In this document: one piece after another, positions 4,972 to 30,268 of the stretch
Layout: each line of letters opens with the position of its first letter
How positions within the stretch are numbered: the stretch's first letter is position 1
Assembly (NCBI GenBank): GCA_040221055.1
Contig: JAVJVN010000012.1
Span: 112,890 to 176,889 of the forward strand
Direction of reading: 5' to 3'
Source of the DNA: Rhodothermales bacterium
Lineage (GTDB): Bacteria; Bacteroidota; Rhodothermia; Rhodothermales; UBA10348
Length of the DNA: 64,000 bases
Notes under the pieces: generated by a model
What the model saw: only the letters and a program-made list of their open reading frames with translations
Database searches by the model: none
What the model was told of the DNA's origin: nothing
Program-made: the position numbers and the translations under genes

Positions 4972-6348
4972 ATGAAGAAGGCTTTGATTACATTCGCTTT
5001 CGCCCTCTCGATCCTGGTCGGATGCGGCGGTGGGACACCGCCTGGTGTGACCAGTCACGTGGAAGGCACCCTCCGGGTCCGCGGAGACGTGGAGACGACC
5101 GGTGACTATCGGGATTTCATCCTCACGGTGGTCAACCAGCGGGACGGGGATGTGGACACGCTGGCTACGGCCATAACCGACAGCCTGGGTGCGTTCTCCA
5201 TGACCGTGCGTGCTCCCGAGGCCGGCATCTATCCCCTCATTGTGGAACGGGCCGGACAGCAGCTCGCCCTGGAGGAATTGGTGGTCGTGGAAGGGGATTC
5301 CGTGAGCATAAGCGGCACGTTTCCGCTCGGCAACCGGAGGCTCATCATCCGTTCACCCGAGAACGCGGCGTGGGCAGCCTATCGCAATACGCGCGGTCAG
5401 CACAACCAACAAATGAATGCCCTGGTGCAAGGGGGGGCCTATACGGCCAACCAGCTTCGCCAGCTCATGGAACAGTCATCGACCATCCTGTGGAGTGTCG
5501 CGGACACCTATCCGGGAACCATGGGCGCCAAGACAGCCCGCGCCGAAAGCGTGATCATGCTCGAGGGATGGAACGATTCGCTGGTTGTGGCCCGGTACAC
5601 GGACGTGCCGCTGGACGCACCCATCCTGGTGGACATGGTCCGAGCCGCGCGTCGTTCGGTTGCCCGGGTTGCGGGGCAGGATTCCGCTGTTGCGGTCATC
5701 CGTTCCTATGTGGCCAGGATGGACGACGGGGAGCGTCAGGCCGCGCTGCGCTCCGAGTTGGTGATTGCGCTCGCTGACAGCGGCCAGACGGACCTCGCCG
5801 TGCAGGAGGCAGCCGAGTTGCGGCGGTTGCATCCGGATTCCCAGTGGGCGGAATGGGCCAGCCGCGCATCCTACGATCTGGAAAATCTGCAGCCGGGCAT
5901 GCCGGCGCCGGCATTCAATCTGGTGTCCCGGACATCGGAACCCGTTCGGCTGGATGACCTCGTCGGCACGTTTGTCATCCTCGAATTCTACGATCCGATG
6001 GACGACGGCTTCCGTCGCAACCTCGCCGCACGCAATGCGCTGTTCGATGCCCTTCCGGATGAGCTGTTCTCGAAGGTATCGGTCTCTGTTGAGCCGGATT
6101 CGGTACTGAATGACGGCATGTTCGATGAAGGCGATCATCCGGGCGTCTTCATCTACGCTCCCGAAGGCCTGGCCTCCGACGTTGCGGTGGCCTATAACGT
6201 GAATGTCGTGCCGACGCGGTTCCTGATTGATCCGGACGGAAACATCATGGCCAAATATGTCGGAGCAGCCTTGTCTGGATTGGAACAGGATCTGGTCTCG
6301 GTCATCAACGGGCTCAACGAACTGGCCCGCCGGAATCAGGGGCAATAG
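4972..6348 (+). CDS. TlpA/thioredoxin-like lipoprotein lacking the CxxC motif
   Basis: A 458-residue exported lipoprotein with signal sequence and lipobox LVGC (Cys18). The N-terminal third (about 25-130) is beta-rich and resembles the DUF4369-type domain that precedes TlpA-like domains in Bacteroidota. The middle (about 135-300) is helical. The C-terminal 150 residues are a thioredoxin-like fold, opening with PGMPAPAFNL (about 308) and keeping the cis-Pro region VPTRFLIDPDGNI. Where TlpA proteins have WCxxC, this one reads LEFYDPMDDGF, so it has no redox cysteines and is unlikely to be an active thiol oxidoreductase. The ATG at 4972 is chosen over the TTG just before it. It lies 29 bases after the E1 gene and 67 bases before tpiA. 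Confidence 0.8.
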   Translation: MKKALITFAFALSILVGCGGGTPPGVTSHVEGTLRVRGDVETTGDYRDFILTVVNQRDGDVDTLATAITDSLGAFSMTVRAPEAGIYPLIVERAGQQLALEELVVVEGDSVSISGTFPLGNRRLIIRSPENAAWAAYRNTRGQHNQQMNALVQGGAYTANQLRQLMEQSSTILWSVADTYPGTMGAKTARAESVIMLEGWNDSLVVARYTDVPLDAPILVDMVRAARRSVARVAGQDSAVAVIRSYVARMDDGERQAALRSELVIALADSGQTDLAVQEAAELRRLHPDSQWAEWASRASYDLENLQPGMPAPAFNLVSRTSEPVRLDDLVGTFVILEFYDPMDDGFRRNLAARNALFDALPDELFSKVSVSVEPDSVLNDGMFDEGDHPGVFIYAPEGLASDVAVAYNVNVVPTRFLIDPDGNIMAKYVGAALSGLEQDLVSVINGLNELARRNQGQ

Positions 6349-6415: not shown

Positions 6416-7171
6416 ATGTTGATCGCTGGAAACTGGAAAATGAACATGGATCTCATTGCGGCCCGCCAATTGGCCGGTGCGTTGAGAAACAGTGTGGAAG
6501 CGTCGGAAGGCGTACAGGTGGCGATTTGTCCACCCTTCGTGGCGCTCGATGCCGCGTACGGAATCCTACACGGATCGGCCATCCAACTCGGCGCCCAGAA
6601 CATGCATGCGGCCGATTCGGGAGCGTTTACGGGAGAAGTCTCTGCCGGCATGCTCCGATCCGTCGGCTGCCGATATGTCATCCTGGGGCACTCGGAACGG
6701 CGGACGATCTTCGGTGAAACGGACGCCGATGTGAAGGCAAAAGTGGCACAGGCCCTGGCACACCGTCTCGTTCCCATTGTCTGCGTAGGGGAACAACTCG
6801 AGGACCGGGATGCCGGTCGGGAAGAGGCGGTGGTGGCGGACCAACTTCGCGGCGCCTTGACGGACGTGCGTCTTACGGTGCCGTCTGATATCGTCATTGC
6901 CTATGAACCCGTATGGGCCATTGGAACCGGCCGTACGGCAAGTCCCGAGCAGGCTCAAACCATGCATGCCTTCATTCGGAAGGAACTGACCAACCTGTTC
7001 GGGGCTGACACGGCCGCTGCTATCGACATCCTGTACGGCGGCAGCATGAAACCGGACAACGCCGACGAACTGCTGTCGCAACCGGATGTGAACGGGGGGC
7101 TCATAGGTGGGGCCAGTCTGGTCGCCGAATCGTTTGTTGCCCTGGTCCAGGCCGCCGTGCGCTGTCAATAG
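6416..7171 (+). CDS. tpiA: Triosephosphate isomerase
   Basis: Interconverts dihydroxyacetone phosphate and glyceraldehyde 3-phosphate in glycolysis and gluconeogenesis, in the cytoplasm. The 251-residue protein has the normal length and all family landmarks. GNWKMN at 5-10 holds the catalytic Lys, the catalytic His is in ILGHSERR (H92), the catalytic Glu is in AYEPVWAIGTG (E164), and the phosphate-binding loop end is LYGGSMKPDN then GGLIGGASL. The ATG at 6416 is set by GNWKMN, because the frame is open upstream without coding character. It is 67 bases downstream of the TlpA-like gene. Confidence 0.98.
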   Translation: MLIAGNWKMNMDLIAARQLAGALRNSVEASEGVQVAICPPFVALDAAYGILHGSAIQLGAQNMHAADSGAFTGEVSAGMLRSVGCRYVILGHSERRTIFGETDADVKAKVAQALAHRLVPIVCVGEQLEDRDAGREEAVVADQLRGALTDVRLTVPSDIVIAYEPVWAIGTGRTASPEQAQTMHAFIRKELTNLFGADTAAAIDILYGGSMKPDNADELLSQPDVNGGLIGGASLVAESFVALVQAAVRCQ

Positions 7172-20181: not shown

Positions 20182-20193
20182 GGAGGAATAATG
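20182..20193 (+). promoter_or_regulatory. Strong Shine-Dalgarno sequence of the STAS gene
   Basis: GGAGGA at 20182-20187 lies 3 bases before the ATG at 20191. Most genes in this window have no recognisable Shine-Dalgarno sequence, so this one stands out and suggests a highly translated gene. The spacing is short. Confidence 0.55.
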
Positions 20194-20532
20194 AACTACA
20201 ACGTCGAAGAGCGATACAACAGTGTCGTCATCACGCTGAAAGGCAACGTCATGGGGGGGCCGGACGGCTCCAAGCTGCATGACACCCTGCATGACCTGAA
20301 AGAGTCCGGCAAGACCAACATTGTCGTAGACCTGTCAAAGGTCAAGTTCATGAATTCCAGTGGTTTGGGCATGCTCATCAGTGCGATGACCACCATGCGG
20401 AATGCAGGAGGAGATCTGCGTTTGGCCAACGTTGCCGATCGGATCCAATCCCTGCTCGTGGTGACAAAGCTCATTACCGTGTTCAAGCATTTCGAGTCCG
20501 TCGACGAGGCTGCCAAGAGCTTCGACGCCTGA
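20191..20532 (+). CDS. STAS-domain anti-sigma factor antagonist (SpoIIAA/RsbV-like)
   Basis: A 113-residue single STAS domain. The signature MNSSGLGML (about 54-62) matches the region of SpoIIAA/RsbV whose Ser is phosphorylated by an anti-sigma kinase; here S56 would be the equivalent. The usual preceding Asp is Asn (N55). The motif VDLSKVKFMNSSG is otherwise classical. In the family, dephosphorylated protein binds the kinase and frees a sigma factor or other partner. No HATPase-type anti-sigma kinase or PP2C phosphatase is adjacent. A strong perfect terminator follows the gene, so it ends its transcript and is separated from purA. Confidence 0.9.
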   Translation: MNYNVEERYNSVVITLKGNVMGGPDGSKLHDTLHDLKESGKTNIVVDLSKVKFMNSSGLGMLISAMTTMRNAGGDLRLANVADRIQSLLVVTKLITVFKHFESVDEAAKSFDA

Positions 20533-21903: not shown

Positions 21904-23268
21904 ATGAAGGCATATCGCGTATCCGTCAACCTGAAACTGGGTCTGATCGGGTTCGCCATGGTCATTGCGGTCTCCTCGCTGTGGTACACCAACAGCTTGG
22001 TCGAACGCCTGAAGGAACGGGAATTTGCCATGGTGGAGATGTGGGCACGGGCGCTTGAGGAATTGCCCGTGTCTGCGCAGGCAGGCAATACGTACCGCCA
22101 GGAGTTCCGTGAACTCGAAGGGCTGGTCCCGGAATTGAAGCCGTTTGTCGGCTGGACCGATGCCAAACTGAGCCGAATGGTGCGCTCGCTGGCTTGGGCA
22201 CAGGGCATGCCTTCCGGACAAAGTGTGTCCGTGATCCTGGATGCGTTCCTGACTCCGAATGCCTTCACGATTCCGGCGCTGGTCTACGATTCAACGGCGG
22301 GCACATACACCATCTGGAATAATCTGGATGTGGAGGAACTCTCGTTCGCCGGGCTGGATGAAGACGAACGCATGGATCTTGAGGCCCGACTTTCGGCCAT
22401 CCAGGCGGATCTGGAAGCCCAGTACGACCCGATTCCGATCGTGGTTGAATTCGACACCGATCCACCCCAGCGCCTGGTCCAGAAGCTGTATTACGGCGAG
22501 TCGGATCTCGTCGCTGCGCTTCGCTGGTTTCCGTACGTCCAATTGGTGTTCGTGGGCCTGTTCGTGGTCGTCGGCTACGTGGGCTTCTCCTACGTGCGTC
22601 GGAGCGAGCAGTCCAGCCTGTGGGTCGGGATGGCGAAGGAAGCCGCCCATCAACTGGGGACGCCCATCTCAAGTCTGATGGGGTGGATGGAGATGCTCCG
22701 TCTACAGCCCGACCCGGACGGATCCATCGGGCAAACCGTGAATGAGGTGGAACAGGATATTGCGCGGTTGAATCGCGTAGCCACGCGCTTTTCGGACATC
22801 GGATCCATGCCCAAATTGGAGCGACAACCTCTTGGACCCATCCTGGAGGCGACAACCGATTACATGCGACGCCGGATTCCCCGCAAAGGGGCGTTCCTTC
22901 GGATAAGTGTGTCCGTTCCTACGGACCTGGCGGCACCGGTCAATGCAGAACTGTTCGAATGGGTCATCGAGAACCTGCTCAAGAATGCCATGGATGCCAT
23001 GGAAACCGAGCGCGGACGGATAGATATCGTTGCATCGGAGCACGACGGATTTGCCCGGATTGACGTCATGGATACGGGCAAGGGCATCGACCGTCGGCAA
23101 TTCAGGAATATTTTCCGACCGGGCTATTCGACCAAGAAGCGGGGATGGGGTCTCGGGTTGAGTCTGGCCAAACGGATTGTCGAAGACTATCACGGCGGCA
23201 CGCTTACGTTGCACGCGTCCCGACCAGGTGAAGGGACCACATTCCGGATCCGGATTCCCGTGGACTGA
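21904..23268 (+). CDS. Membrane sensor histidine kinase
   Basis: A 454-residue sensor kinase. TM1 lies at about 8-28 and TM2 at about 205-225, enclosing an extracytoplasmic domain of about 175 residues. The dimerisation/phosphoacceptor box has KEAAHQLGTPISSLMGW with His at 249. The catalytic domain shows the N box (NLLKNAMDAM), G1 (DVMDTGKGID), an F-box-like FRNIFRPGYSTKKRGWG, and G2 (GLGLSLAKRIVEDYHGG). No response regulator gene is adjacent, so it is an orphan kinase in this window. The start at ATG 21904 places TM1 near the N-terminus. The stop codon lies inside a small inverted repeat shared with the convergent gene. Confidence 0.93.
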   Translation: MKAYRVSVNLKLGLIGFAMVIAVSSLWYTNSLVERLKEREFAMVEMWARALEELPVSAQAGNTYRQEFRELEGLVPELKPFVGWTDAKLSRMVRSLAWAQGMPSGQSVSVILDAFLTPNAFTIPALVYDSTAGTYTIWNNLDVEELSFAGLDEDERMDLEARLSAIQADLEAQYDPIPIVVEFDTDPPQRLVQKLYYGESDLVAALRWFPYVQLVFVGLFVVVGYVGFSYVRRSEQSSLWVGMAKEAAHQLGTPISSLMGWMEMLRLQPDPDGSIGQTVNEVEQDIARLNRVATRFSDIGSMPKLERQPLGPILEATTDYMRRRIPRKGAFLRISVSVPTDLAAPVNAELFEWVIENLLKNAMDAMETERGRIDIVASEHDGFARIDVMDTGKGIDRRQFRNIFRPGYSTKKRGWGLGLSLAKRIVEDYHGGTLTLHASRPGEGTTFRIRIPVD

Positions 23269-23284
23269 TTCCTCCCGGAATCAG
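23265..23284. terminator. Compact bidirectional stem-loop over two convergent stop codons
   Basis: CTGATTCC at 23265-23272 pairs perfectly with GGAATCAG at 23277-23284 around a TCCC loop. It covers the stop codons of both the histidine kinase (+) and the hybrid protein (-). The 8-bp stem without a clear T run could act as a short terminator for both strands, though its strength is modest. Confidence 0.45.
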
Positions 23285-24375
23285 GGATAGACGAAGCGGG
23301 ACCGGATGCCGGCGGGGTCGTCTGCCGTCGTGAACACGGTGTAGATGTCGTCCCTGTAGCGCCAGCTTGCCCGGGCCACATTTCCGTTGACCGTGATATC
23401 CACGCCGTCCGGAGCGGCCAACTGTGTCATGGACGCGGGATTCAGCGCAAAGTCATACCGGAACTCGTCCAGGAGGCGGTACGATATGACGAACACTTCC
23501 AGATCCGGCCCCCCATCCATTTCATAGTGCAGGATGGGGACGTCCACCTGCCCGGCCAGATCCATGGATGAAGCCCCTTCCAATCGTCCGTCCGTGATTC
23601 CGGGGACGGTAATCCGCGCACCGAATTGGTCCAGGAGGACCCGCTCTGCCTGCACTGGACTCGGTCCCGTATACAGCACGGTCTTTTCCGATCCTGAGGC
23701 GAGCAAATCAAACAGATTCGGGGGGGCACTCGCCGCGGGGTCCGTCGGATGTGTGGGACGACCAACCCAGATACCTATGAGCGACACAATCAGGATGACT
23801 GCGAGTGCCCCCCCGAATCGAACGGCTGGATGTATCCGTTTCGGATGAACGACGGGGCCGCCCGGACCGGGATGGCGTGTACGGAGTGCGGCATCAATAC
23901 GGGTACGGAGTTCACTGGGAACGGGTGGGGCGGAAGATCCCAGGACCCGGAAAAGGGCATCCCTGATTTCCGTATCGTCCAGCTGGCGTGCGGTCCCATC
24001 CGCCATCCTGCGGCGAACGGCATACGTAAACACCGTCCGCTCAGTCTGGGTGGCCTCGCCTTCGGGATTGACGGGCATCCATGCGCTCAAGATGGCCAAC
24101 CTGCGTTCGGCCGGCAAGGATGCCAGCAACTCGCGTACGGTGCGGTCCAACGCGTCGCGGCGGACGGAAAGGGTCCAAATCCCGTGAGGGCGACTCCGGA
24201 CTCCCGACGTCATCCGCTCCAGTCTCGTGATGACGTCCAGTTCGTTGGTCGGCTCGGCTTCGGAAAACAGCCGCTCGACCAAACGCACGGCATCCTCCCT
24301 GGAGTCGGCCACGAGTTGCGCCGCCGCCCAAGCGACCTGAATGAGGTCCGGTGCATCGGAATCAGGATTTGTCAT
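23281..24375 (-). CDS. Membrane-anchored hybrid protein with ECF-sigma-like N-terminus and uncharacterised C-terminal domain
   Basis: A 364-residue protein with no confident family. Residues about 10-40 (AQLVADSREDAVRLVERLF) read like ECF sigma region 2.1-2.2, and about 76-98 (RELLASLPAERRLAILSA) reads like the start of sigma region 4. The spacing between them is short and no DNA-contacting helix-turn-helix is clear. A single membrane segment lies at about 187-204 (FGGALAVILIVSLIGIWVG). The outer domain (205-364) is beta-rich, with repeated Leu/Val/Asp strands and no Cys. Topology resembles a transmembrane anti-sigma factor, but the cytoplasmic half resembles a sigma factor. Its start overlaps the 3' end of the SAM hydrolase gene by 14 bases. 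Function is not assigned. Confidence 0.75.
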   Translation of the reverse strand: MTNPDSDAPDLIQVAWAAAQLVADSREDAVRLVERLFSEAEPTNELDVITRLERMTSGVRSRPHGIWTLSVRRDALDRTVRELLASLPAERRLAILSAWMPVNPEGEATQTERTVFTYAVRRRMADGTARQLDDTEIRDALFRVLGSSAPPVPSELRTRIDAALRTRHPGPGGPVVHPKRIHPAVRFGGALAVILIVSLIGIWVGRPTHPTDPAASAPPNLFDLLASGSEKTVLYTGPSPVQAERVLLDQFGARITVPGITDGRLEGASSMDLAGQVDVPILHYEMDGGPDLEVFVISYRLLDEFRYDFALNPASMTQLAAPDGVDITVNGNVARASWRYRDDIYTVFTTADDPAGIRSRFVYP

Positions 24376-25201
24376 CGGAAAACAGAACGTTTACAGGAGC
24401 ACCCTTGTGGATATTCAGCATTTCGGATGCATTCCCGTTGTTTATGGCAATTTCGACGAGTCCGTTGCTGTTGACCAGCAGTGTGGCATCGCCGGGTGAG
24501 ACATCGGCATAGGTGGCACTGAAACTGGGAATAATGGCATTGCCGGCATAGCATTTCACCGGTCGGCCCCTCCTGCGTGATTCCAGTTCCTGTGCAGAAA
24601 TATTGGTCACGCAGTTCCCGAACCGGTCTACGTGTACGACCCATCCCTGTGTCCCTTCATCGTCCGAGATGGGGAGGGCCCAGTGCATGCGCATGACCGA
24701 ATCCACCGGCGTGCCGGCTGCCGTCATCGACAGGCCGGCAGACATACGTGCAGCAACCGGCCCAAAGATGTCACGGCCATGGAAGGTGGGACTGGGTGTG
24801 GGCGTTCCCCAGAAACGAGGTTTGTCCAGGAGCACGACGTGCTCCGGTTCATCTCCACTGAGTACCAGGGAAAACAGTCCATTGTCGGGTCCTACGAAGG
24901 TATGTCCCCGGTAACGCATGGCAATGGCCCGGCGCGTCGTTCCCACTCCCGGGTCCACCACGGCGAGGTGCACGGTCCCGACCGGAAAATGCCACCACAC
25001 GTTGCGGAGCACGAAGGCTCCACCCATGACGTCCTGCGGGGCGATGTCATTGGATATGTCAACCAGCCGGACATCCGGGGCCAGCCCGAGCATGACACCT
25101 TTCATGGCCGCAACATACCCGTCGCTGGAGCCGAAATCGGTCGTCAGCGTAATGATGCCGGAGGTTACGTACACAGGGTGGATGGGTTTTGGTACTTGCA
25201 C
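24362..25201 (-). CDS. SAM hydrolase (SAM hydroxide adenosyltransferase, DUF62 family)
   Basis: Member of the fluorinase/chlorinase-related DUF62 family, most members of which hydrolyse S-adenosylmethionine to adenosine and methionine. The 279-residue protein has TTDFGSSDGYVAAMKG near the N-terminus, VDPGVGTTRRAIA, VGPDNGLFS, FHGRDIFGPVAA and the C-terminal WVVHVDRFGNCVTNIS with the ADE-binding residues of the family. The N-terminal start is a GTG at 25201; a GTG 27 bases inside is an alternative, since the domain begins with the ITLTTDFG strand. It overlaps the next gene by 14 bases. Confidence 0.92.
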   Translation of the reverse strand: MQVPKPIHPVYVTSGIITLTTDFGSSDGYVAAMKGVMLGLAPDVRLVDISNDIAPQDVMGGAFVLRNVWWHFPVGTVHLAVVDPGVGTTRRAIAMRYRGHTFVGPDNGLFSLVLSGDEPEHVVLLDKPRFWGTPTPSPTFHGRDIFGPVAARMSAGLSMTAAGTPVDSVMRMHWALPISDDEGTQGWVVHVDRFGNCVTNISAQELESRRRGRPVKCYAGNAIIPSFSATYADVSPGDATLLVNSNGLVEIAINNGNASEMLNIHKGAPVNVLFSDDKS

Positions 25202-26858: not shown

Positions 26859-28825
26859 GAGGCACTCCGGATGGCGTCGAGGGCAGTCGGATCCTCCAGG
26901 CTGGACACGTCACCGGGATCTGCACCCAGGTAGGCCGCGCGGACCAGGCGACGCATGACTTTCGCATTGCGGGTTTTGGGTAACTGGGTGGTGAAGCGGA
27001 CAAACGCGGGGCGCAAGGGTTTGCCCAATTCCGCGGCGATGGCCGCGGAAAGCGCGTTCCGGAGATCCGTGGTCGGATCGGAGCCGGGATTCAGCACGCA
27101 GTACACGCCAAGCGCTTCGCCTTTCACGTCGTCAGGAATACCGATGGCTGCACTCTCCGCGACGGCCGGATGGGCATTCAAAATGGCCTCGGCTTCGGCT
27201 GGTCCAAGTCGCTTGCCGGCAACTTTGATGGTGTCGTCACTTCTTCCCAGGATGAACCAGAGTCCATCGTCGTCCACGGCGGCAAAATCACCGTGCAACC
27301 ACACACCGGGAAACGTCTTCCAATAGGATTCGATGTATCGGGGGTTGTCGTTCCAGAAACCCCGGGTCATCCCGATCCATGGGCCACGGATGACCAACTC
27401 ACCTACGGCACCGCGAATGGAGGAACCGGTTTCATCGACGACATCTGCGGCCATTCCGGGCACCGGACCAGAGAACGAACATGGTTTGAGCGGCCGGAAA
27501 AAATTCCCGCACAGGATTCCGCCGCTGATCTCGGTTCCGCCCGAATAGTTCAGGATGGGCTTCCGGCTGTCGAGTACGTTGCGGAAAACCCAAAGCCAGG
27601 AGTCGGGGTCCCACGGGCTGCCCGTGGAAGCAATGGCACGAAGGGAAGACACATCCCGGCTTCGGATGGGCTCCGTTCCGTGGGGCATGAGGGCTCGCAC
27701 CAGGACGGGGGACAAGCCCAGATGTGTAACGCCATGGGAGGCCACGGACTGCCAGACCCGTCCGGCGTCCGGGACATCCGGTGCCCCGTCATAGAAAACC
27801 ATGGTGGCACCCAACGCGAGCGTTCCGAAAACGAGCCAGGGTCCCATCATCCATCCCATGTCCGTCATCCAGTAGACGACGTCCCCCGGCTTCACATCCA
27901 TGGCCTGGCGCATGTCCTGGGCACTCTTTACCGGAAAACCGCAATGCGTATGGACGGCACCCTTCGGCCGGCCGGTCGTTCCGGACGTATAGATGATCAT
28001 CAGCGTATCCTCCGCCGACGTGGACGCCGTGGGAGCCACGGCTCCGTGTCCGCTGACAAAAGCCGACCACCAGACATCCCGACCGCTGGTCATGGGCGTT
28101 CCGTCGCGGCCGGTTGCGTCCTGGACAATGACGTGGCGTACGGTGGGAGCCATCGTCAGGGCCTCATCGGCCGTCTCCTTCATCGGAATCTGCTTGCCCC
28201 GGCGCATGAATCCGTCGGCCGTGAAGAGGGCTTTCGCACCCGCATCATTCAGTCGCGTGGCAATGGCTTGCGGGCCGTATCCGGAGAAGAGCGGCAGGAT
28301 GACGCCTCCAATCTTGATGATGGCCAGGAAGGCCACCGCCAGTTCCACCGTCATGGGCATGTAGAGCCCCACGGCATCGCCTTTTACCAAACCCAAGGAG
28401 TGCAGGGCATTCGCACACCGGCAGACGGCATCGTTCAACTCTGCGTAGGTAAGCGTGTCCACCGACCCGTCTTCCGATTCCTGGATGATGGCAGGCCGAA
28501 GACGGGTATCCGGGTCCTCTTGCCATTTGTCCAGCAGGTTGTGGATGATGTTCATGCGGCCGTTCACACACCAGACGGGGAACTCCACCCCCTTGGACAG
28601 ATCCATGACGGAGGAATAGGGCCGCTCGAAGCGGATATCCAGATCCTTCAGGACAGCGTCCCAGAACCACTCGGGTTGGGAAACCGAGCGCTCCTGGAGG
28701 GCATCCAGACTCGGTATCCCGTATCGATCCATGAATGCCTGGAGATTGGATCTGGAAATCCAGTCCGGATTCGGGCTCCAGGCCACGGATTGATCGAAGG
28801 GAAAGGTCGTGGAAGGCAGTGGCAT
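26855..28825 (-). CDS. AMP-forming acyl-CoA synthetase
   Basis: Activates a short-chain carboxylate to acyl-AMP and then acyl-CoA. The 656-residue cytoplasmic enzyme matches the acetyl/propionyl/acetoacetyl-CoA synthetase group. The N-terminal cap includes ISRSNLQAFMDRYGI and WFWDAVLKDL. The adenylation core has IIYTSGTTGRPKGAVHTH, YWMTDMGWMMGPW, GGTEISGG and WLHGDFAAVDDDG. The C-terminal lid has GRSDDTIKVAGKRLGP and the catalytic Lys region LPKTRNAKVMRR. The W instead of E.D in some core positions does not let me fix the substrate. It runs into the next gene through a 4-base overlap. The nearest functional partners in the window are the E1 fusion and tyrosine catabolism genes, but linkage is not shown. 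Confidence 0.9.
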   Translation of the reverse strand: MPLPSTTFPFDQSVAWSPNPDWISRSNLQAFMDRYGIPSLDALQERSVSQPEWFWDAVLKDLDIRFERPYSSVMDLSKGVEFPVWCVNGRMNIIHNLLDKWQEDPDTRLRPAIIQESEDGSVDTLTYAELNDAVCRCANALHSLGLVKGDAVGLYMPMTVELAVAFLAIIKIGGVILPLFSGYGPQAIATRLNDAGAKALFTADGFMRRGKQIPMKETADEALTMAPTVRHVIVQDATGRDGTPMTSGRDVWWSAFVSGHGAVAPTASTSAEDTLMIIYTSGTTGRPKGAVHTHCGFPVKSAQDMRQAMDVKPGDVVYWMTDMGWMMGPWLVFGTLALGATMVFYDGAPDVPDAGRVWQSVASHGVTHLGLSPVLVRALMPHGTEPIRSRDVSSLRAIASTGSPWDPDSWLWVFRNVLDSRKPILNYSGGTEISGGILCGNFFRPLKPCSFSGPVPGMAADVVDETGSSIRGAVGELVIRGPWIGMTRGFWNDNPRYIESYWKTFPGVWLHGDFAAVDDDGLWFILGRSDDTIKVAGKRLGPAEAEAILNAHPAVAESAAIGIPDDVKGEALGVYCVLNPGSDPTTDLRNALSAAIAAELGKPLRPAFVRFTTQLPKTRNAKVMRRLVRAAYLGADPGDVSSLEDPTALDAIRSAS

Positions 28826-28948
28826 GAACGGTTGCAGGGTTGGAACGTACGGTTTCAGTCGGTTGTCTTTTCGCTAAACCAAATTGCGGGACGTTCGTTC
28901 TATTGGACCTTGCGAAATACCCGGAACCCCCCAAATCGTTCAGAACCC

Positions 28949-30268
28949 ATGCCCCGTCTGCCCCTGGTTGTATTGTTCATGCTCCTCGTGGCCGGTTGCT
29001 CAACCGAGTCGACAATGGAAGGATTGATTTCCGACCATTTGCCCGGTCCGGACTCGGGCAATCCGAATGAGATGATCCTGTTTGACGGGGCCCTCTATAT
29101 GCAGATGGCCGATCCGGCGTATGGCGTAGAAGTGTTCAAGTACGATGGTACAGGCCTGGAACGCGTTACGGATATTGAACCGGGTATCGGCAACGCTGTG
29201 CCTTCCCGGTTCACCATCTGGCAGGATCGACTGTATTTCACGGCCAGTCGAATGCCTTACGGCCGGGAGCTCTTCCGGCTGGAAGACGGCCGTGCCCGTC
29301 TGGTCAAGGACATCGGTGAAGACCGGGGTGGCTCGGATCCCCGCAGCAAGACGGTCATGGGCGATGTCCTCTACTTTTCCGCGAATGACCACAAGATCGG
29401 GTTCGAACTCTGGCAATACGACGGTACGGAAGCCACGTTGGCCGCGGATGTGGAAGCGGGGCCTTCCAGTTCCAATCCGGTCGGACTGACGGTATTCGAG
29501 GACGCGTTGTACTTCATGGCGACCGTATCGACCACAGGAAGTGAACTGTATCGATTCGTCCCCGGATCCGGGGCTGAACTTGTTGCTGACATCAACCCCG
29601 GAACGTCGTCCAGTCGGCCGCAATTCCTGACGGTTCTGGGCGATGCACTGTATTTCTCTGCATTTGCCCCGGAAACCGGCATCGAACTGTATCGACTCCG
29701 AGACGGTGTGGTTGCGTTGGTCTCCGATCTGAACGAAGGCACGGCCAGTTCCTCGCCGACGCAGTTGACTGTGGTGGACAATACACTCTACTTCGTGGCA
29801 TCGACGGCTGAAATGGGCCAGGAACTGTATCGGATCAACCCGGAAGGGTCCATCGAACTGGTGGTCGATATTGCTGAAGGTGCGCAGGGAAGTTCGCCGT
29901 CCAATCTGTTCGCCAGCGGGAATCGCCTGTTCTTCTCGGCGGATGATGGCAAGACCGGTGCAGAATTGTGGATTGCCGACGGGGCAGGCGTGCGGATGGT
30001 GCGTGATATCCACATGGGCCCGGAAGGCTCAGGGCCGTTGCATTTCGCGACCTTCAACGACGAATGGGTGTGGTTTACGGCGCGTACGGCGGCGCACGGT
30101 GCCGAAGTATGGCGTTCCAACGGCACGGACGCCGAGCTGGTCCGGGACATACGCCCCGGACCGAATTCCAGCTCTCCGACCGACTTCGCCGCCATCGGCA
30201 CGCAGATGTGCTTTGCGGCAAACGAAGGGGGGACCGGCCACGAATTGTGGTGCCTGGAGGCCCTTTAG
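28949..30268 (+). CDS. ELWxxDGT-repeat surface lipoprotein
   Basis: A 439-residue lipoprotein with signal peptide and lipobox LVAGC (about residues 13-17). The rest is a tandem array of about eight 45-50-residue repeats. Each holds a strand such as LYFSA or LYFVAS, then GxELWxxDG or GxELYR, then VxDIxxGxxSSxP. This is the ELWxxDGT repeat pattern, a beta-propeller-like array in surface proteins of unknown ligand. The ATG at 28949 is set by the signal peptide; the frame extends far upstream but antisense to the acyl-CoA synthetase. The TAG stop (30266-30268) sits on the left end of the inverted-repeat element, so the original 3' end may have been altered by insertion. Confidence 0.88.
   Translation: MPRLPLVVLFMLLVAGCSTESTMEGLISDHLPGPDSGNPNEMILFDGALYMQMADPAYGVEVFKYDGTGLERVTDIEPGIGNAVPSRFTIWQDRLYFTASRMPYGRELFRLEDGRARLVKDIGEDRGGSDPRSKTVMGDVLYFSANDHKIGFELWQYDGTEATLAADVEAGPSSSNPVGLTVFEDALYFMATVSTTGSELYRFVPGSGAELVADINPGTSSSRPQFLTVLGDALYFSAFAPETGIELYRLRDGVVALVSDLNEGTASSSPTQLTVVDNTLYFVASTAEMGQELYRINPEGSIELVVDIAEGAQGSSPSNLFASGNRLFFSADDGKTGAELWIADGAGVRMVRDIHMGPEGSGPLHFATFNDEWVWFTARTAAHGAEVWRSNGTDAELVRDIRPGPNSSSPTDFAAIGTQMCFAANEGGTGHELWCLEAL

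Follow-up and report, generated by a model that had tools for sequence, protein, structure and literature searches.

In IutY (ECF243) and in the groups ECF48, ECF52, and ECF53, according to PMC8999054, an ECF sigma factor is fused C-terminally to a membrane-bound anti-sigma portion, and these proteins are described as sigma factors that proteolysis activates or is expected to activate. PhyR is described in PMC4598750 as a sigma-mimic anti-anti-sigma factor, in which a sigma2-sigma4 fold does not act as a sigma factor. For sigma and anti-sigma factors in general, a co-evolution study (PMC7406223) indicates that helix 4 of the anti-sigma domain binds sigma2 and helix 1 binds sigma4, and that sigma regions 2.1–2.2 bind the clamp helices. 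The same study reports that Bacteroidetes ECF12 sigma factors have no adjacent class I anti-sigma factor, so that they would use orphan anti-sigma factors or another mode of regulation.

Here we describe a gene of a Rhodothermales bacterium, lying in a stretch of 64,000 nucleotides of contig JAVJVN010000012.1 that is called the window below, whose product appears to combine a degenerate ECF sigma factor with a membrane helix and a periplasmic domain.

The fusion gene and its neighbors

The fusion gene occupies positions 23281–24375 of the minus strand and encodes 364 amino acids, with an ATG start and the stop codon included. The initial annotation of the window, which gave no strand, had proposed a 364-residue membrane protein here with two sigma-like stretches, and the open reading frame and both stretches are real. 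In the protein, helices extend as far as residue 166 or so, the membrane helix begins at residue 187, and an alpha/beta domain follows at about residue 221. Residues 10–54 (24214–24348, minus strand) form the putative region-2-like remnant and contain the first stretch, DSREDAVRLVERLF (residues 24–37, positions 24265–24306). The second, LLASLPAERRLAIL (residues 83–96), belongs to the putative start of region 4 at residues 73–97 (24085–24159, minus strand), after which the helix-turn-helix has been shortened away. Both assignments come from profile comparisons and from the alignment to the free sigma factor described below. They are followed by a juxtamembrane helix with the motif PVPSELR at residues 150–167 (23875–23928, minus strand), which looks like the fourth helix of an anti-sigma domain. 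The single membrane helix that had been noticed before was recovered by hydropathy at residues 187–205 (23761–23817, minus strand; Kyte-Doolittle 2.37 from residue 187) and as a helix at residues 188–204 of the structure model. The periplasmic alpha/beta domain takes up residues 221–364 (23284–23715, minus strand) and gave the structural match to the RseB C-terminal domain and the profile matches to outgroup zinc-finger anti-sigma factors that are described below.

Upstream of the fusion gene, and overlapping its start by 14 nt, lies a gene on the same strand (24362–25201) that presumably encodes a DUF62 or SAM hydroxide adenosyltransferase-like protein. On the other side, a histidine kinase gene on the plus strand (21904–23268) is convergent with the fusion gene and ends 12 nt from its stop codon. 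This arrangement was found widely in Rhodothermales, where the kinase is convergent with the fusion gene in 38 of 43 regions and DUF62 lies next to it in 41 of 43, among the neighbors tested. Further along the window, at about 28900–30268 on the plus strand, a protein with a lipoprotein-like start carries repeated ELYR/ELW-type motifs; the mechanical open reading frame given there (27170–30268) is longer, because it continues upstream over a gene of the opposite strand.

A STAS gene (20191–20532) had been pointed out 2.7 kb away, and the distance is correct (2.75 kb). It is part of a conserved purA-STAS-secF-secD run, and its product is 91–93% identical within the genus versus 37–38% for the fusion protein. 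No link to the fusion gene was found, and the STAS gene was ruled out as a partner by the conserved run and by this contrast in identity.

Resemblance to ECF sigma factors

Analysis of the window protein alone gave little. A Pfam search returned no match, a sequence search against the PDB returned nothing usable, and a single-protein scan of genome contigs found no relative. In a search of 44 proteins, it matched a region-2 sub-profile at E = 0.012 and a region-4 sub-profile at E = 0.63. Judged by its own sequence, the sigma likeness of this protein without its orthologues is not significant, and the sigma assignment becomes significant because of the orthologues.

The family was found in 47 of 60 genomes searched (the window's included), and its profile matched 90 of 114 Rhodothermales genomes. 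Matches limited to about profile positions 8–115 are sigma factors and were excluded from the family count. By the rows listed for the 90 genomes, the match in 61 is one unbroken stretch that begins at profile position 12 or before and reaches at least 364, in 19 it covers the C-terminal part only (from at least 145), and in 10 it is partial or split. Direct comparison by hhalign of 16 N-domains of the window family with 15 ECF sigma factors (13 from the window's genome and 2 from outgroups) gave 6.3% over 28 columns, and these columns (12–39) include the region-2 stretch of the initial annotation. The same 16 N-domains matched those of 10 better-preserved orthologues with 96.2% (E = 2.7e-9; columns 8–96), and the latter matched the ECF sigma factors with 98.7% (E = 3.8e-16) over 148 columns covering regions 2–4, the hhalign E-values being pairwise. 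The sigma resemblance proposed earlier is therefore borne out for the family through its better-preserved members, but not by direct comparison of the window family.

Individual orthologues agreed with this. The N-domain of L046 (L numbers denote the regions compared) exceeded the Pfam cut-offs for PhyR_sigma2 (1.8e-7), Sigma70_r4_2 (1.3e-6), and PhyR_sigma-like (1.7e-6), so that ECF regions 2 and 4, which sequence profiles do not find in the window protein, are present in some orthologues. With E-values up to 0.1, the sigma model PRK12546 matched 8 of 35 members and Sigma70_r4_2 matched 6 of 35. In the PDB, the 35-row family profile matched SigL and SigE over profile positions 8–129, with E-values of 3e-5 to 5e-5 (SigL, 3.1e-5), and among PDB sequences the N-domain of L158 was matched best by the PhyR sigma-like domain 2lfw (E = 9.5e-7). 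Chance similarity, which the initial annotation had kept among its readings, is ruled out by these matches at the level of the family, a point that the window protein alone cannot show.

Structure models

AlphaFold2 was run on eight-row alignments and gave modest models for the window protein and L158, with mean pLDDT of 69.7 and 68.5. L158 and L046 come from the same contig. In the L158 model, the N-part matched SigL region 4 with Z 9.4 (75 residues), and over regions 2–4 it matched SigW (Z 8.1, rmsd 4.0) and CnrH (Z 8.0, rmsd 4.5). SigK was also matched with Z 8.5 but with an rmsd of 8.4, and PhyR with Z 7.5 and 27% identity. By title, 41 of the 50 structural matches listed are sigma factors, sigma complexes, or PhyR entries. 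In helical bundles, Z values up to about 13 can reflect a common arrangement, and weight was therefore put on the agreement with sequence. The inner half of the window model is poorer (pLDDT 32–79 in ten-residue blocks), and its N-part gave a weak match to RpoE with NepR (Z 5.0, rmsd 6.0).

The outer domain was modeled better, with pLDDT blocks of 82–93 for residues 221–350, and its seven strands agree with the beta-rich domain described before. Its best structural match was the RseB C-terminal domain, both in the window protein (Z 7.1, rmsd 3.1, 92 residues) and in L158 (Z 8.0), although a Z below 8 over about 92 residues may represent a common arrangement. For the window protein, TM1622 (Z 5.5) and kinases (Z at most 4.5) followed. 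The search of the PDB with the family profile found no sequence-level match for this domain with E up to 1.

The separate sigma and anti-sigma genes of the outgroup

In L137 and L138, two genomes that belong to the class but to another family, the outer domain was found on a separate membrane zinc-finger anti-sigma factor (profile E = 4e-32 and 2e-30; zf-HC2 1.8e-12 and 5.9e-9). The gene of this anti-sigma factor overlaps by 20 nt that of a canonical SigH/SigR-type ECF sigma factor (TIGR02947, 8.2e-53 and 2.4e-57). Both halves of the fusion are thus separate overlapping genes in L137 and L138, and single open frames in Rhodothermales. An earlier suggestion was to look near homologues for a full ECF sigma gene, the absence of both sigma similarity and RNA polymerase-related neighbors counting against the sigma reading; the similarity exists, and a homologue adjoins an ECF sigma gene in these two genomes.

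In 11 other class-member regions (L139–L147, L151, and L152), which we take to be Balneolales, the N-domain profile found no sigma factor and the outer domain lies on an anti-sigma-like gene. All 11 genomes carry the free sigma factor elsewhere, and these orphan genes are candidate regulators of it.

Of 117 class genomes searched for the free sigma factor, 58 contained it, all of them outside Rhodothermales (49–100% identical among the matches listed); the other 59 had no match, 39 of them being counted without individual listing. When 114 Rhodothermales genomes were searched with it, 47 gave matches with E = 5e-24 to 1e-21 and, among the matches listed, 30–40% identity, which by sequence would place them at the level of paralogues. 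No orthologue-level free sigma was found in these 114 genomes, 67 of which had no match at all at 1e-21.

The convergent kinase connects the two kinds of loci. An orthologue of the window's kinase, convergent in the same way, adjoins the free sigma gene in 26 of 28 loci checked, these being outside the two adjacent-pair genomes and taken from 60 such matches listed. Three outgroup kinases compared were about 40% identical to that of the window over more than 410 residues. Since the convergent kinase is shared, the fusion gene lies where most of the outgroup loci examined have the free sigma gene. In L137 and L138 the kinase is not beside the sigma/anti-sigma pair, so the pair and the kinase slot were not seen together. 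In six outgroup loci (L166, L168, L176, and L190–L192), the free sigma gene is flanked on its far side by the gene of a membrane protein, which presumably resembles a CPBP-type intramembrane protease and may aid sigma release. A divergent orthologue in the same slot (L148:4623–5570, G029) shows an HTH-like stretch by eye in its N-terminal part, for which no sigma or anti-sigma family match was found.

In a tree of 31 domains, a branch with support of 100/100 set 17 ECF paralogues apart from the sigma factors, 7 free and 7 fused; the tree was built without PhyR and EcfG, the branch of the fused domains has a great length of 2.57 changes per column, the composition of two fused rows is odd, and the 7 free sigma factors do not make up one side of a branch.

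Judged from sequence profiles and gene order, together with the tree and the lack of an orthologue-level free sigma factor in Rhodothermales, the protein very probably originated as a sigma/anti-sigma fusion, and the fusion remnant named among the earlier readings is the one that this evidence favors.

Loss of DNA- and polymerase-contacting charges

In promoter recognition, the basic region 2.4 serves the −10 DNA and the recognition helix of region 4 the −35 DNA. The charges of both were found to be reduced in the fusions. The mean net charge of regions 2.3–2.4 fell from +7.1 in 8 free sigma factors to +0.9 in 9 well-preserved fusions, that of the recognition helix from +4.3 (7 free sequences) to −0.8, and that of region 2.2 went from −3.8 to −0.1; the shift was seen in all nine of the well-preserved fusions. 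In six rows of the window family, a mean of +1.7 was obtained for the columns that align with the recognition helix, an alignment that is unsure because the helix-turn-helix has been shortened away in this family. Some orthologues keep the sigma fold and its position, with the DNA- and polymerase-contacting charges lost.

Proposed explanation

We propose the following course of events. A SigH/SigR-type ECF sigma factor and a membrane zinc-finger anti-sigma factor would have been neighbors in the ancestor, as they are in the two outgroup genomes, and would have become one protein in the lineage of Rhodothermales, in which the free sigma factor is no longer found. The fused sigma factor would then have lost the charges that bind −10 DNA, −35 DNA, and the polymerase clamp, and the window family would have lost the region-4 helix-turn-helix in addition. 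The result, probably no longer a sigma factor, may be a membrane sensor whose periplasmic RseB-C-like domain would read the envelope. In its inner part, the region-2-like helices and the juxtamembrane helix derived from the anti-sigma factor may keep a protein-binding surface, which would dock a partner, perhaps another sigma or anti-sigma factor, rather than DNA.

It is probable that the fusion protein is not an active sigma factor, and this together with the fusion origin makes a reading that we hold with reasonable confidence. The docking function of the inner part is a tentative suggestion, to which we would give somewhat less than an even chance. A more specific form is that of a transmembrane sigma mimic, in which the state of the envelope, read by the periplasmic domain, would determine across the membrane whether a sigma2-like surface is open or covered, and this surface would titrate an anti-sigma factor or compete with a sigma factor. 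This form we think unlikely. If true, it would be a membrane-embedded counterpart of PhyR, born by the fusion of a sigma factor with its own inhibitor.

Loss of the sigma part and constraint on the inner domain

A different function with the same origin would be that of a relic, in which the membrane helix and the periplasmic domain alone work and the inner domain is a leftover that is tolerated while it is being lost. The sigma part is indeed absent from 7 of 44 orthologues, whose N-termini are short or proline-rich (among the 44 proteins scored, the reading of L052 and L053 was confined to the C-part frame, and contig ends truncate L063 and L067). In L199, L200, and L201, DUF62 and the kinase are adjacent and no fusion gene lies between them. 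According to a species tree, the sigma part seems to have been lost independently at least twice; this tree is rough, with poorly supported deep branches, and L148, L150, L153–L156, and L198 were labeled as reduced by default, without scoring, although a profile search of the L198 genome found no family match at all. The fusion protein also evolves faster than the neighbors compared, being 37–38% identical to its genus relatives as against 61–63% for DUF62, 63–64% for the kinase, and 85–86% for purA.

Among three other members of the genus, however, identity was 74–85% in the region-2 part, 65–70% in the rest of the N-part, and 72–76% in the membrane helix plus outer domain, versus 39–49% in the linker. 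The dN/dS of the three pairs that these form was 0.10–0.13 for the N-part, 0.07–0.12 for the C-part, and 0.26–0.36 for the linker, dS being close to saturation. Four further pairs gave N-part values of 0.05, 0.12, and 0.25 and, in one case, a value that was not computable. The N-part is also of steady length, with 123–144 residues in the 16 nearest members. From identity and dN/dS together, the inner domain does not look free to drift in the window's genus, and we consider the relic possible but on the unlikely side.

That the short forms without a sigma part represent the ancestral state was rejected, because the full sigma domains match the free sigma factor. In two regions, L052 (G032, about 6510–6600) and L053 (G048, near 5965), whose genomes consist of one and three contigs, a frameshift in a linker splits the fusion gene. 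One of the two frameshifts precedes the membrane helix and the other follows it, and they may represent a sequencing error, a pseudogene, or a switch.

The segment before the membrane

The topology of the protein is that of a transmembrane anti-sigma factor, and the inner domain could in that case repress an unlinked sigma factor. The NCBIfam anti-sigma model NF052375 matched residues 122–236 with E = 2.8e-6, at 27.5 bits versus a cut-off of 100, and it matched 6 of 35 members. By hhalign, residues 75/95–186 gave 67–75% with the outgroup anti-sigma domains, and orphan anti-sigma-like genes with the same C-domain exist in other orders.

However, the same residues gave 74% with the sigma4 region of the full fusions, and residues 95–165 are linked through intermediate orthologues to that region (93.3% over 42 columns in the first step and 88.4% over 101 in the second). 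Since the 75% anti-sigma match is about equal to the sigma4 match, and the intermediates lead to sigma4, residues 95–165 may be either a retained anti-sigma domain or part of sigma4. In the full fusions, no anti-sigma domain is detectable, the pre-membrane segment giving 1.1% and 0.2% with it. The part that ends at about residue 97 derives from the sigma factor, and the sequence of the window protein has no Hx3Cx2C zinc motif. We regard repression of an unlinked sigma factor as distinctly unlikely.

As for the preferred docking function, the window protein keeps the sigma2-like part and the helix-4-like PVPSELR helix, with sigma4 reduced and helix 1 unrecognizable. Such a combination is what a docking module complete in itself would be expected to have. 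An orphan zf-HC2 anti-sigma factor for the inner domain to titrate was not found in the genome, where each of the three zf-HC2 hits lies beside an ECF sigma gene.

Very improbable, finally, is a membrane-tethered active sigma factor whose inner domain is freed by proteolysis to direct transcription, as in IutY of Pseudomonas putida, since the overall architecture of the known fusions (PMC8999054) and the sigma2 and sigma4 folds retained by some orthologues are set against the charge losses and the shortened helix-turn-helix given above.

Comparison with known systems

Searches of the open-licence PMC literature found no report of the present family among the papers listed. Living relatives appear to keep the stages of such a course: a two-gene switch, a fusion, a sigma factor without its DNA-contacting charges, the loss of the sigma part, and the loss of the gene. 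The stages from the fusion onward share one chromosomal slot with the free sigma factor of most outgroups.

Compared with the SigR/SigH-type sigma factors and their zinc-finger anti-sigma factors, the outgroup pair holds both halves of the fusion, but there as two separate genes with intact motifs. This type of free sigma factor is, we assume, ECF12-like. If the free sigma factors are ECF12, the unlinked genes with the C-terminal domain described here would be candidate anti-sigma factors, and in two outgroup genomes a gene with this domain lies next to the sigma gene. The periplasmic domain has its best structural likeness in the C-terminal domain of RseB/MucB, but here it is fused in cis and the identity is about 10%.

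PhyR is similar in that its sigma-like domain was the best PDB sequence match of an orthologue, L158. However, PhyR has a receiver domain, whereas the window protein has a membrane helix and a periplasmic domain and, without any Pfam match, no receiver, and our tree, from which PhyR and EcfG are absent, points to a SigH/SigR-like source. Unlike IutY, ECF48, ECF52, and ECF53, the family described here has lost the DNA- and clamp-binding charges, has no zinc finger, lacks the sigma part in some relatives, and belongs to a different lineage. Fusions such as IutY and ECF52 and mimics such as PhyR were already known, and what is new is a membrane-fixed, non-functional-looking sigma factor with a traced origin.
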